Shown: positions 36,690-42,843 of the stretch, one piece after another | Layout of the letters: each line of letters opens with the position of its first letter | Numbering within the stretch: position 1 is the first letter of the stretch | DNA from: Kushneria avicenniae | GTDB lineage: Bacteria; Pseudomonadota; Gammaproteobacteria; Pseudomonadales; Halomonadaceae | NCBI RefSeq assembly: GCF_900112585.1 | Contig: NZ_FOLY01000001.1 | Coordinates: 124,001-188,000, forward strand | Reading direction: 5' to 3' | Length of the DNA stretch: 64,000 bases | The notes under the pieces: model-generated | The model's database searches: none | What the model was told of the DNA's origin: nothing | The model's input: only the letters and a program-made list of their open reading frames with translations | Position numbers and translations under genes: made by a program

Positions 36690-36784
36690 GACATGACTCC
36701 TGACAAGAATTATTCAATATGGTGAATATAAACCATTCTGGCATCGGTCATGTGCCAATCTACTTATCGTGTGTCAATACTTCG

Positions 36785-36800
36785 CATAATATATATTATG
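36785..36800. promoter_or_regulatory. Perfect 16-bp AT palindrome upstream of zur
   Basis: CATAATATATATTATG is its own reverse complement. It lies in the intergenic region between the divergent DUF1161 gene and zur, 157 bases before zur. Fur/Zur-family operators are AT-rich palindromes of comparable length, so it is a candidate operator. A second imperfect site, GATAACGTTACC, lies at about 36891-36902, nearer zur. Confidence 0.4.
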
Positions 36801-36956
36801 TTAAATTCTATATCTGGACAGTTTTTCGGTAACCCTTGCCGTGAAGCCTGCCTGATCATTTGTGATGTTTACCAAGGTGCGAGCCCTGCCCGATAACGTT
36901 ACCATGAGCGCATATTTTTTCATGCTGTCCTGCGCTTTCAACGATGAGAACATTCA

Positions 36957-37400
36957 ATGCCTGATGTATCCAGCCTGCTGCGCATGGCCGAAGTACGCTG
37001 TCGCGATAACGACGTGCGATTCACTCCCATTCGTCGCCGAGTGTTTGAAATCATCAGTGAGCACTCCAGCGGCCTGAAGGCCTACGAGCTTCTGGATCTC
37101 CTGTCCAGCGAGCATGCCTCTGCGCGGCCGCCCACGGTCTATCGCGCGCTGGATTTTCTGCTCGAACAGGGACTGGTACATCGCATCGAATCACTCAATG
37201 CCTATGTGGCCTGTCCGTGCCCGGATCATTCGCGTGGTTTTCAGCTCATGATCTGCCGGCACTGTGGTCTTGTCGAAGAGATGCACGATCACGACACCAT
37301 GGCGCGTCTGGAAGAGACGGCTGCCGGCCATGGGTTTCGCATCGAGCGCCAGACCATCGAGCTCTCCGGCGTTTGCCAGCAATGTCAGCAGTCAGGCTGA
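36957..37400 (+). CDS. zur: Zinc uptake regulator Zur (Fur family)
   Basis: A 147-residue Fur-family repressor. The winged helix lies in residues 20-80 (FTPIRRRVFEIISEHS, then RPPTVYRALDFLLEQGLVHR). Structural zinc cysteines are C100/C103 (ICRHCG) and C140/C143 (CQQC), and the sensing-site region has CPCPDHS (86-92), which is the Zur rather than Fur arrangement. Zur represses zinc importers and zinc-sparing paralogues when zinc is sufficient. It heads a compact run zur-dihydroorotase-hisI-yidD with a 45-base gap to the next gene, so it probably autoregulates this operon. No znuABC genes are in the window. Confidence 0.92.
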   Translation: MPDVSSLLRMAEVRCRDNDVRFTPIRRRVFEIISEHSSGLKAYELLDLLSSEHASARPPTVYRALDFLLEQGLVHRIESLNAYVACPCPDHSRGFQLMICRHCGLVEEMHDHDTMARLEETAAGHGFRIERQTIELSGVCQQCQQSG

Positions 37401-37445
37401 TCGCCACCGCTGCCCGTTTTTGTCCAATAACACAGGTCCCCCGTC

Positions 37446-38780
37446 ATGTTTGATCTGCTGATCGTCAACGCTCGTGTTGTCAACGAAGGTACTATCCGCG
37501 AACTCGACGTGGGCGTGCTGGATGGGCGTATCAACGCCATTGGCACTTCCCTGTCACGCGATGCCAGAAAGGTCATTGATGCACGCGGTCGTTATCTGCT
37601 TCCCGGCATGATTGATGATCAGGTGCATTTTCGTGAGCCGGGCCTGACCCAGAAGGCGGATATGGCCACTGAGTCGGCAGCGGCCGTTGCCGGCGGTATC
37701 ACGACCTATATGGAAATGCCCAATGTGAAGCCGCCGACGCTGGATAGCGATGCGCTCGAGGCCAAGTACGCACTGGCGCGTGGTCGCTCGCATGCCAACT
37801 ACGCTTTCTATCACGGTGCGAGCAATGACAATCTGGAGGCCATCAAGGCCCTCGATCCGTCGACGACCTGCGGGATCAAGATTTTTATGGGGGCCTCAAC
37901 CGGCAACATGCTGGTAGATGCGCCGCAGACGCTCGAGGACATTTTTGCCAACGCAAAAATTCCGGTCATCACGCACTGTGAAGACACGCCAATGATTCAG
38001 GAAAGCGAACGCCAGGCGCGTGAGCGTTTTGGAGAGCAAGTTCCCTTTTCCCTTCATGGCGAGGTTCGCTCACGCGAGGCCTGTTACAAGAGCTCCAGCA
38101 TGGCGATCGAGCTGGCGCGCAAGCATGGTACGCGCCTGCACGTGCTGCATTTGACCACGGCTGATGAAATGGCGCTTTTCGAGCCCGGCCCCGTGGAGGG
38201 CAAGCTGATCACAGCCGAAGCCTGCGTGCATCATCTGTGGTTCTGTGACGAGGACTACGAGCGTCTGGGGTCCTGGATCAAGTGCAACCCGGCCATCAAG
38301 ACCTCGGCAGATCGTCAGGCCATTCGGGATGCGGTCAACGATGGCCGTATCGACATCGTGGCCACCGACCACGCTCCGCACACGCTGGAAGAAAAAAACA
38401 ACAGCTATTTCAAGGCGCCTTCCGGCATGCCGCTGGTGCAGCATGCCCTCTCCTCTCTGCTGGATCAGGTCAATGCCGGTCACTTTGAGCTGACCACCAT
38501 TGTCGAGAAAACCAGCCACAACGTGGCGCGGCGCTTTGAGCTGGCTGATCGTGGCTTTATTCGTGAAGGTTACATGGCGGATCTGGTACTGGTGGATCTG
38601 GACAAGCGCTTTAACGTCACCCGCGATGCACTGCTTTACAAATGCGGCTGGAGCCCTTTCGAGAACACTGCGCTGCGAGGCAGTATTGATACCACCATCG
38701 TCAACGGCAGGATTGCCTGGGATGGTGAAAACCTTGCCAGCGCCCCCGCGGGTGAGCGCGTGACCTATCGTCGTCAATAA
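37446..38780 (+). CDS. Dihydroorotase, Q-x-H variant linked to zur (PyrQ-like)
   Basis: A 444-residue cyclic amidohydrolase of the dihydroorotase family, the third step of pyrimidine synthesis. Seen: DDQVHFREPG at 57-66, where the first metal ligand of the usual H-x-H is Q59; K145 in GIKIFMGAST at the bridging-lysine position; H177 (ITHCED), H235 (LHVLHLT) and the catalytic D308 (VATDHAPHT). This DDQVHFREPG subgroup includes the Zur-regulated dihydroorotase paralogue of Pseudomonas. With zur upstream and hisI downstream, a role as a replacement enzyme under zinc limitation is inferred. If the genome has no other pyrC, it would be the main enzyme. Confidence 0.85.
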   Translation: MFDLLIVNARVVNEGTIRELDVGVLDGRINAIGTSLSRDARKVIDARGRYLLPGMIDDQVHFREPGLTQKADMATESAAAVAGGITTYMEMPNVKPPTLDSDALEAKYALARGRSHANYAFYHGASNDNLEAIKALDPSTTCGIKIFMGASTGNMLVDAPQTLEDIFANAKIPVITHCEDTPMIQESERQARERFGEQVPFSLHGEVRSREACYKSSSMAIELARKHGTRLHVLHLTTADEMALFEPGPVEGKLITAEACVHHLWFCDEDYERLGSWIKCNPAIKTSADRQAIRDAVNDGRIDIVATDHAPHTLEEKNNSYFKAPSGMPLVQHALSSLLDQVNAGHFELTTIVEKTSHNVARRFELADRGFIREGYMADLVLVDLDKRFNVTRDALLYKCGWSPFENTALRGSIDTTIVNGRIAWDGENLASAPAGERVTYRRQ

Positions 38781-38800
38781 TCAACGGAGCAGACAGGAAC

Positions 38801-39250
38801 ATGAGCGCATCCTCCCCTACCTACAAGGCGCTGGAGCAGGCCGAGCCCGGGACCGAAACCGGGCTTGAGACACTTCTGGACGCAGCTGGCTGGAATGATG
38901 ACGGTATGATGCCGGCCATCGCTCAGCAGTTCGACAGCGGTGAAGTGCTGATGATGGCCTGGATGACGCGGCAAACGCTGGAGGAGACGCTGCAGACCGG
39001 TCGGGTCTGCTACTGGTCTCGTTCGCGTCATAGACCATGGCGCAAGGGAGAGTCATCGGGTCAGGTTCAAATGCTGAAGCAGGCCTGGCTGGATTGCGAT
39101 GGTGATACCCTGCTGCTCAAGGTGGATCAGACCGGTCCCGCCTGCCATACCGGCCGACGCACCTGCTTTTATCTGGCGCTTGATGAGAAAAACGCTCGGG
39201 TGGACACTGCGCCCTTGATGTCTTTCGAGGCGCTGTATGGCAACAGCTGA
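38801..39250 (+). CDS. hisI: Phosphoribosyl-AMP cyclohydrolase HisI in a zur operon
   Basis: A 149-residue enzyme opening the purine ring of PR-AMP in histidine synthesis. The core [19 protein letters not shown] with C99, D98/D100/D102 for Mg2+, then C115 (ACHTG) and C122 (TCF), retains all three zinc cysteines and the magnesium aspartates. About 30 N-terminal residues exceed the minimal HisI. No hisE domain or other his gene is near; it stands 20 bases after the dihydroorotase and overlaps yidD. HisI paralogues are known members of Zur regulons, so this copy is likely the zinc-starvation form rather than the housekeeping one. Confidence 0.9.
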
Positions 39251-39575
39251 TGCGCTGCGTCTGCTGTTGCGGGGGCTGAAAAAAACGCTTGCCATGTTGC
39301 TGATTGCACTGGTGCGCGTTTATCAATACGGCATCAGCCCCCTGATCGGACCGCGCTGTCGTTTCTGGCCTACCTGTTCAAACTATGCGATCGAGGCCAT
39401 CCAGCTGCATGGCCCGCTTCGTGGCGGATGGCTCGCCCTGAAACGGATTCTGCGCTGCCATCCCTTCTGCGCCGGCGGCGTTGATCCAGTGCCTCCCGCA
39501 TCATGCCGACACTGCAGCGATCATGGCCAAGGCAATGAGCGCGCCCTGCTGCACCGGCACGACGATCAGGCCTGA
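39237..39575 (+). CDS. yidD: YidD-family membrane protein insertion efficiency factor
   Basis: A 112-residue protein with the YidD signature: an amphipathic/hydrophobic N-terminus ([20 protein letters not shown]), [15 protein letters not shown] and [14 protein letters not shown]. YidD assists membrane insertion with YidC and normally sits between rnpA and yidC. Here it overlaps hisI by 14 bases and ends the zur run, with a cysteine-rich tail (CRHCSDHG) after the core. Its stop overlaps the end of the convergent DUF2628 gene by ten bases. Whether it is the only yidD of the genome is unknown. Confidence 0.88.
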
Positions 39576-40464: not shown

Positions 40465-41640
40465 TTATAACGCGTCATCGGAGGCATCGTCCGGAAGATC
40501 AAGCGCGTGTCGATTGATCTGTCCGTGCCACTCCTGCGCTTCAGCGTGGAGGTAGCGGGCGGTGGTCTCAAGTCGTGAATGGCGCGCCGTCCGCGATAGA
40601 TAGCGCAGCTCGACGCCCTGCTGAGCCTGATGAGTGATGGCAGTATGGCGCAGCCAGTGAGGCGTGGCCTGTCGAAGGCGCTGCGCTTCATGTGACGTCG
40701 AGTCGCTTTCTCGCTCTCTTGTTTGCGCCAGACCCTCAAAGGTTGTCTTGATCATGCGATAAAGCTGATTGTCCCCGACGCCTCGCTGGCCATCCAGCGT
40801 ACGTATGACCGGCGTCTCCTCTTCAGGCGACGGCGTGGCGGACAGTCCAAGCATGTCGCGCCACTGCCCTAGCGCCGCCATCATGGCATCCGGCACCGGG
40901 ATGCTGGCTTGCTTGCCGCCCTTTCCGGTTACCTGCCACCACCACTGACCTTCACGCATTCGAAAATCATTCATGCGGGCATGGCTCATTTCACTGATGC
41001 GTGGGGCCAGCAGATAGGCAAAGGCGAAAACAAAACGCTGGCGCTCGCACTCATAGCGCACTCGAATCGTGGCGTCCGCGGGCGGCGGCGTATTGAGCTG
41101 CTGCCAGCACCATCGCCAAAGCGGGCGCTCTAGGTAGCGCTCGATGGTATTTGACGTGTTATCGAGTCGGCGACGTTTGTCGCGCATCAGCCTGAACGGA
41201 TTCTGGCTCAGCCACCCCGCCTCGATCAGCCAGCCAAACAGGGTCTGCAAAATGACCAGGGCCTGACGGCGGCTGGCGGCAGAAAGCCCTTTTCGAAATG
41301 GTCGCCACGCCTCACTGCTCCGGGGGCTGGGGGGGCCAATCCATTCAGCGGTTGGCCTGGGGTCGGCAAGAAAGGCCTCGAATGCATCCAGCGCTCGCCG
41401 ATCAAGGTGTTCAAGGCGTTTTCCCTTGTCTTCCAGCCATAACAGCAGCCGCTCGGCTTCCTTGCGGTACTGTCTGAAGGTCTGTGGGCTGGTGCGATAT
41501 TCCATGAGCCATGCCGCTACGATCTCTCGATCGCTCTCTGCCTCGACCAATTGACCGGGCATGGCAAGCGTCGTCCTCTTGATCAGGGCCGCTTCCTTCG
41601 GCAAATCGTTTGCAGGTTCAGCGCTCAACGGTGTTTTCAT
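40465..41640 (-). CDS. Tyrosine recombinase / integrase, catalytically intact
   Basis: A 391-residue site-specific recombinase. The N-terminal core-binding (SAM-like) domain spans about 35-150. The catalytic set is complete: R214 (APRISEM), K240 (VTGKGGK), H328-x-x-R331 (PHWLRHTA), H354 (ARHSRL) and nucleophile Y363 (RYLH). It is neither XerC nor XerD by length and N-terminus; similar proteins are found near kfrA-like genes on plasmids and chromosomes. Here it is divergent from a KfrA-like gene across a 237-base AT-rich region. No tRNA, attachment-site duplication or phage genes adjoin it, so it may be a resident recombinase rather than an active element. Confidence 0.88.
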   Translation of the reverse strand: MKTPLSAEPANDLPKEAALIKRTTLAMPGQLVEAESDREIVAAWLMEYRTSPQTFRQYRKEAERLLLWLEDKGKRLEHLDRRALDAFEAFLADPRPTAEWIGPPSPRSSEAWRPFRKGLSAASRRQALVILQTLFGWLIEAGWLSQNPFRLMRDKRRRLDNTSNTIERYLERPLWRWCWQQLNTPPPADATIRVRYECERQRFVFAFAYLLAPRISEMSHARMNDFRMREGQWWWQVTGKGGKQASIPVPDAMMAALGQWRDMLGLSATPSPEEETPVIRTLDGQRGVGDNQLYRMIKTTFEGLAQTRERESDSTSHEAQRLRQATPHWLRHTAITHQAQQGVELRYLSRTARHSRLETTARYLHAEAQEWHGQINRHALDLPDDASDDAL

Positions 41641-41877: not shown

Positions 41878-42843
41878 ATGGCACGAAATGGCGTGCAGTT
41901 CGAAGACGTACAAAGGGCAATAGAAACCCTCATACAGCGCGGTGACGTCCCCAGCGTGCAGCGCATCCGCGAGGTGCTGGGCACCGGCAGTTTCACCACC
42001 ATCAGTGATCATCTGCGCGAATGGCGGGCACGGCGCGAGGAAAATCGCGATGTTCCCCTGCCGCAGGCCATTCCGGAGCGTTTGCATGACGCACTGGCCG
42101 GGCTCTGGCAGCAGGCGCAGGAGGAAGCCGGTGAGGCGCTCTCCTTCTATCGTCAGCAGTCCGATGAGCAGGTCGAGCAGGCCCGAGAAGAAGCCCGCCA
42201 GGCGCAGCGGCGTGTCGAGGATACCGAGCAGCGGCTTGAAGCCCTTGGCGAGCGACTCGACAGTACGGCGGCCCGGCTCGAGGAGAAGGCAACGGGTCTG
42301 GCGCGGCTTGAAAGCGAAGCAGCGCATCTGCGCAGCCAGCTTGAGGAGCGTGATCAGCGCCTGGCCATGCGTGACCGGCAGATCAACGCGCTCAGCGAAG
42401 AGCGGGATCGCATGGAGCGAGAGCATCATGAAGCGCTCGAAGAGCAGGAGCAGACGCACAAGCGGCGCCTGGCTCAGGAGGAGTCACGCCACGAAAGCGC
42501 CGAGAATCGACTGATGCAGCTGCTGGACAGCGCGCGCCATGAAAAGCAGGAAGTCGAGAAACAGGCACGGCGCCGACAGGAGCAGCTTGAAGAGCGTATC
42601 GAGAAGATCAATACCCAGCTGGAGCAGCAGCGCCGCACCCTGCAGGAAGAAGAGCGCAAGATGCGCGATCTGGGGCAGCAGGCCCGCTACAGTGAGCAGC
42701 AGCTTCAGGAAAGCCGCGGGCGGGAGGATCATCTGTCCGGTCTTCTGACCGAACGCGATCAGGAAATAGCCCGCCTTCGCACCGAGCTCAGGGTGCTGCA
42801 GGAACGCCTTTCCAGATCGCCCATGCCGCCCTTTGTGTACTAA
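41878..42843 (+). CDS. KfrA-like DNA-binding coiled-coil protein
   Basis: A 321-residue protein. Residues about 5-110 match the KfrA N-terminal DNA-binding domain (VQFEDVQRAIETLIQRGDVP, then VLGTGSFTTISDHLREWR with a helix-turn-helix), and residues about 100-310 are one long Glu/Gln/Arg-rich coiled coil. Plasmid KfrA proteins autorepress and form filament-like assemblies aiding partition. On this chromosome it is divergent from a tyrosine recombinase, with repeats between them. The start ATG has GGAGG upstream. Function on the chromosome (nucleoid or recombination-site binding) is inference. Confidence 0.85.
   Translation: MARNGVQFEDVQRAIETLIQRGDVPSVQRIREVLGTGSFTTISDHLREWRARREENRDVPLPQAIPERLHDALAGLWQQAQEEAGEALSFYRQQSDEQVEQAREEARQAQRRVEDTEQRLEALGERLDSTAARLEEKATGLARLESEAAHLRSQLEERDQRLAMRDRQINALSEERDRMEREHHEALEEQEQTHKRRLAQEESRHESAENRLMQLLDSARHEKQEVEKQARRRQEQLEERIEKINTQLEQQRRTLQEEERKMRDLGQQARYSEQQLQESRGREDHLSGLLTERDQEIARLRTELRVLQERLSRSPMPPFVY

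Follow-up and report, generated by a model that had tools for sequence, protein, structure and literature searches.

The zur-pyrC-hisI-yidD locus

Four successive open reading frames, all on the forward strand, lie within a 64,000-nucleotide stretch of the Kushneria avicenniae genome (contig NZ_FOLY01000001.1, positions 124,001 to 188,000; hereafter the window). Their coordinates confirm the gene order zur-pyrC-hisI-yidD given by an earlier reading of the DNA made from the letters alone (the sequence-only reading), with intergenic gaps of 45 and 20 bases followed by a 14-base overlap. The features of the locus, in window coordinates, are as follows:

36783..36806, + strand: dif-like core CGCATAA-N6-TTATGTTAAAT, exact match; palindrome between a DUF1161 gene and zur
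36957..37400, + strand: zur, 147 aa; Fur-family zinc uptake regulator
37401..37445, + strand: zur-pyrC gap, 45 bases; position of the Zur box in relatives, none here
37446..38780, + strand: pyrC, 444 aa; PRK09236-type dihydroorotase, Gln59 replacing the first His of the HxH motif
38801..39250, + strand: hisI, 149 aa; phosphoribosyl-AMP cyclohydrolase
39237..39575, + strand: yidD, 112 aa; membrane protein insertion efficiency factor, 14-base overlap with hisI

Matches to family models bear out the families named for the four genes. PyrC scored 696.3 bits against the dihydroorotase model NF006688 (curated cut-off 535), HisI 159.9 bits against NF000768 (curated cut-off 126) and YidD 83 bits against TIGR00278 (curated cut-off 40). 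The top FUR model for the zur product is Zur PRK11639 (NCBIfam), which at 130.4 bits stays under its cut-off of 167 and leads the other Fur-family models by a wide margin. The best matches of this protein in the PDB are 7dh7, a Fur-family regulator, and 4mtd, a zinc uptake regulation protein (E 1.3e-29). Residue conservation was read from alignments whose rows come from 183 loci with some genomes represented twice, and on this basis Cys100, Cys103, Cys140 and Cys143 of Zur are invariant (47/47 rows). The K. avicenniae genome contains two Fur-family genes, the zur gene of the window and one other.

The palindrome upstream of zur, which we take to resemble E. coli dif, was considered as a Zur operator and rejected as a dif-like site. 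The window contains its core once, against 0.00 occurrences expected in shuffled sequence, and the core was matched exactly in 33 of the 279 loci examined; in many relatives it lies near the zur locus, often close to ectC. A phage-integrase-family (tyrosine recombinase) gene at 40465-41640 is located about 3.7 kb from the site, and a KfrA-type gene follows it at 41878-42843. GC skew levels off near 36-42 kb with no sign change there, which neither proves nor excludes a terminus. Scans of the region yielded three promoter sites (1.8 expected), none convincing before zur, and six terminator sites (2.5 expected), none convincing.

Copy number and type of the dihydroorotase

The sequence-only reading took the genes for a likely zinc-sparing operon, in line with the second copies of pyrC and hisI known from Zur regulons, and had named the absence of other pyrC and hisI copies, together with zinc-independent, constitutive expression, as the mark of a plain housekeeping cluster. 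The genome of K. avicenniae (3.6 Mb in 16 contigs, 100% complete by the estimate of the tool used) was searched for extra copies. With the window PyrC as query and E values up to 10 a single gene was retrieved, the searches for HisI and YidD likewise gave one gene each, and a model search of the same genome gave no E. coli-type PyrC. One candidate for the latter, a partial match of 32.6 bits, was situated inside the window's own pyrC and was discounted. The second copies expected by the sequence-only reading were thus not found in this genome, which agrees with the first part of its mark of a housekeeping cluster; zinc-independent expression, the second part, is predicted here. As the sole copies found, pyrC, hisI and yidD must therefore serve growth at all times.

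An E. coli-type PyrC (TIGR00856) scored above cut-off in 94 of 121 family genomes and failed to do so in 27. PyrC of the window's type, counted at at least 50% identity to the window's protein (a cut-off of our own), was present in 26 of those 27 genomes versus 3 of the 94, so that both types occur together in G032, G054 and G078. In 25 of the 26 the protein is full-length, with 60-100% identity; the remaining one (G086) is a 50% fragment from a genome that is only 77% complete, and its lack of an E. coli-type PyrC is for that reason uncertain. One genome (G105) has neither type. Weaker relatives, below 50% identity, were seen among the 94 in G008 (two fragments, 46% and 35%), G060 (38%), G056 (36%) and G120 (33%). 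The relative in G060 lies behind a strong Zur box (31.3), beside an E. coli-type PyrC in the same genome, and two HisI matches were found in G060 and G035 only, with one in each of the remaining 119 family genomes. The PyrC relative and the second HisI match of G060 are likely to be a true spare set. The distribution of the two PyrC types and cases such as G060 therefore indicate that the types largely exclude each other in the family, and that true spares exist there too.

The first His of the HxH metal motif is replaced by Gln59 in the window's PyrC, and Gln is found at this position in 94 of 95 aligned rows. Gln59 aligns with a His of the allantoinase 3e74; in 2gwn, the nearest relative of solved structure, the position is likewise occupied by Gln. 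Among the best 80 named loci with this type of PyrC, a close zur neighbour was seen in family members only; four others had a match of 26-32% identity. PRK09236-type PyrC is not in itself a zinc marker. A marine gammaproteobacterial record (L238, 4992-9224), on the other hand, shows a typical zinc-sparing set: a box scoring 28.6, about 181 nt further on a pyrC of this type, and after it folE2 and thrS. Two Pseudomonas loci (L231 and L233) were rejected as Zur clusters, the pyrC-type gene there standing, by eye, beside a dihydroorotate-dehydrogenase-like gene.

Zur boxes in the K. avicenniae genome

The Zur box was derived from 30 znuB-type loci of family genomes, 24 of which clearly show it, in the form TGTTATGTTATAAC; this count comprises scores of at least 13 of 18 and omits one locus (L096) whose match scored 13 and has a different look. 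A position weight matrix (PWM) was built from 17 boxes of znuB-type loci, and both the matrix and the score cut-off of 18 are our own. A Zur-box candidate was found in the K. avicenniae genome between the divergent znuA and znuCB genes. The znu genes are located away from the operon, on contig C12 and possibly C16.

The whole genome was also scanned with the box pattern. At three mismatches the pattern was as common as its reversed control (50 + 53 versus 49 + 51 sites), and therefore only the nine loci with at most two mismatches were read and the scan is informative for good sites only. Such sites adjoin znuA/znuCB, zinT, amidase and COG0523 GTPase genes, and further ones lie near a nickel/opine-type ABC gene, a gene for an EitA-like binding protein and a class III alcohol dehydrogenase gene; several of these neighbouring genes were identified under NCBIfam cut-offs and over those of Pfam. 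Two of the nine loci (L147 and L149) look like chance by eye. A strong Zur-box-like site (27.9; L141, 1499-1517) precedes the gene of the class III alcohol dehydrogenase, a zinc-type enzyme, by about 90 nt.

The operon itself gave no such site. Among the matches listed with up to three mismatches, which extend to contigs beyond C8, the contig of the operon, none falls in positions 148304-207961 of C8, a range that includes the operon. Upstream of zur no Zur box was found, the best PWM match (8.8) being the dif-like site. The zur-pyrC gap has no Zur box either: its best PWM score is -3.2, compared with 18.4 to 32.5 in ten related genomes that carry a box between zur and pyrC. The sequence-only reading held that Zur represses the operon, with induction on zinc starvation to sustain pyrimidine and histidine synthesis. 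A variant would be that Zur autoregulates the whole operon from the zur promoter, by way of an operator that has diverged; such an operator could escape the matrix and cut-off used here. In favour of Zur repression, zur heads the operon, relatives carry a Zur box within it, and in L238 the same type of PyrC is encoded together with folE2 and thrS downstream of a strong box. However, pyrC, hisI and yidD have no second copies, no box was found in or just before the operon although the same search yields candidate boxes at znuA/znuCB, zinT, amidase and COG0523 GTPase genes, and the conserved palindrome upstream of zur proved to be a dif-like site. We consider repression of the K. avicenniae operon by Zur unlikely, in either variant.

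Zur boxes and znu genes in the operons of relatives

A wider survey covered 37 family loci, one per genome, with the znu open reading frames read in nine of them. The sequence-only reading had proposed looking for the same gene order in other Halomonadaceae, and the order is not a chance one: zur is present at 35 of the 37 loci, and in all 121 sampled family genomes yidD comes immediately after hisI, with both genes on the same strand. The znu genes are found inside the operon at 11 of the 37 loci, and a box scoring at least 18 was present in the operon at 10 of these 11 and at none of the 26 others. Exceptions among the loci holding znu genes are L081, which has no box, and L053, which barely passes the cut-off (18.4). 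In these relatives zur is followed by the box and then by znuA-znuC-znuB within the operon. Cobetia amphilecti (L166), for example, has the order zur, box, pyrC, znuA, znuB, hisI, yidD, and the box is also present in two Kushneria genomes and others.

The same association was seen among genomes in which zur directly precedes pyrC. All ten with a znu gene downstream have the box and none of the 14 without does; one genome (G094) was omitted from this count, as its contig breaks off at this point. In all ten the box begins 36-43 nt ahead of the pyrC start. Among genomes whose pyrC is separated from zur, or in which no zur was seen, the box was found in G067 and G078 and not in G032. Placed on a tree of PyrC proteins, presence of the box requires three changes, which are also forced by the well-supported branches; G094 was scored as boxless in this tree, and G032 forms a long branch of unsure placement. 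The simplest reading of tree and parsimony is that an ancestral box may have been lost in the main Kushneria clade and in a Marinospirillum clade.

These data also bear on the possibility that the genes form a plain housekeeping cluster that was never related to zinc, with zur as a mere neighbour and hisI-yidD as an old pair. The adjacency of hisI and yidD throughout the family would fit this explanation, as would the 26 of 37 loci lacking both znu genes and box and the frequency of PRK09236-type pyrC without zur among the best 80 loci. It is at odds with the znu genes and strong Zur box inside the operon at ten family loci, and with the position of the box between zur and pyrC in C. amphilecti, and it appears improbable to us.

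HisI and YidD

HisI retains Cys99, Cys115 and Cys122 together with Asp98, Asp100 and Asp102, and these Cys and Asp residues are invariant in 82 of 82 rows. YidD was found in 133 of 143 genomes of a class-wide sample. The usual place of yidD is the rnpA-yidD-yidC cluster; among the yidD loci read, the window's excluded, 22 of 29 are followed, as far as visual inspection shows, by a YidC-like open reading frame, which is broken in one case. The gene of the window belongs to the same YidD family, and in the Halomonadaceae it stands instead after hisI. The three Cys residues of YidD show no variation across all 146 aligned rows, and a sequence search found no solved relative of the protein.

Several other arrangements involving yidD were observed. 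Its start lies 205-309 nt upstream of a PRK09236-type pyrC in 32 of the best 80 loci (L177 and 31 others), mostly in Xanthomonadales. A hisI-yidD pair without zur is present in another gammaproteobacterial family (L274). In a further family of the class, yidD, a small open reading frame, znuA, zur and zrgA stand in a single row on the reverse strand (L273, 4148-6929), in which the PWM gave no Zur box (best score 5.3). Because yidD ends the zur-pyrC-znuACB-hisI operon, occurs in the L273 row and in the L274 pair with hisI, precedes pyrC in 32 of 80 loci and encodes three invariant Cys residues, YidD might be an overlooked member of the bacterial zinc economy, perhaps binding zinc, a suggestion that we regard as doubtful. 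In the open-licence papers covered, no description was found of yidD in a Zur operon or of a zur-pyrC-hisI-yidD operon, which is a weak negative.

Comparison with known zinc-sparing and zinc-uptake systems

The excerpts of published work drawn on here describe Zur-regulated paralogues of the same enzymes. The PyrC paralogue under Zur regulation is reported to be active despite the absence of zinc ligands, and HisI paralogues to retain theirs (Haas, 2009; PMC2770081). In P. aeruginosa the Zur-regulated cluster PA5539-PA5541 comprises folE2, a carbonate dehydratase gene and pyrC2 (PMC4542158; PMC10393844), and PyrC2 complements loss of its paralogue (PMC10393844). P. protegens has Zur-regulated pyrC2 and hisI2 (PMC6103462). 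The window's PyrC, in which one His of the metal motif is replaced, resembles in type the Zur-induced spare reported from Pseudomonas.

The K. avicenniae operon resembles such paralogue clusters in the linkage to zur, in a dihydroorotase with an altered metal motif and in hisI, and its relatives add znu genes and a Zur box. The pattern of altered metal ligands, which these sources report for the spare PyrC and not for HisI, is matched as well, by Gln59 in PyrC and by the retained residues of HisI. In contrast to those clusters, the genes of K. avicenniae are the only copies rather than spares and have no Zur box, and the operon includes yidD and contains no folE2, dksA2 or COG0523 gene. With zur-znu uptake operons the relatives share zur, the box and znuA-znuC-znuB, whereas the znu genes of K. 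avicenniae are elsewhere.

A probable former zinc-controlled operon

The zur-pyrC-hisI-yidD operon is probably the remnant of a formerly zinc-controlled operon that now serves housekeeping and whose control site is apparently gone. We favour this explanation because the genes are sole copies, the box is tied to the presence of znu genes, the tree requires three changes, a candidate Zur regulon exists elsewhere in the genome, and the PyrC types are distributed as described above. The link to zinc proposed by the sequence-only reading thus stands as history, in the znu genes and Zur box within relatives' operons and in a PyrC without one His of its metal motif; for K. avicenniae itself it is not supported, the genes being the sole copies found and no box having been found.

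The ancestral form would have been zur, Zur box and pyrC-znuA-znuC-znuB-hisI-yidD, as still found in relatives. In two branches, the main Kushneria clade and the Marinospirillum clade, the znu genes would have left the operon and the box between zur and pyrC would have disappeared. Judged from these comparisons, a zinc-economy PyrC may first have become the sole enzyme, with Zur control lost afterwards in the two branches. In K. avicenniae, pyrC, hisI and yidD are most likely transcribed together with zur, from the zur promoter and independently of zinc. Zur would still act elsewhere, at znu, zinT, amidase and other genes.

A zinc sensor at the head of an operon is, taken alone, no proof of zinc control. 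Zur-controlled spare enzymes have been described as temporary stand-ins, and in this family a dihydroorotase of the spare type is the only one found. The box-bearing genomes (Cobetia, two Kushneria and others) and the boxless branches provide paired genomes in which one could test how a gene kept as a spare for times of stress turns into the sole copy and loses its control by stress.
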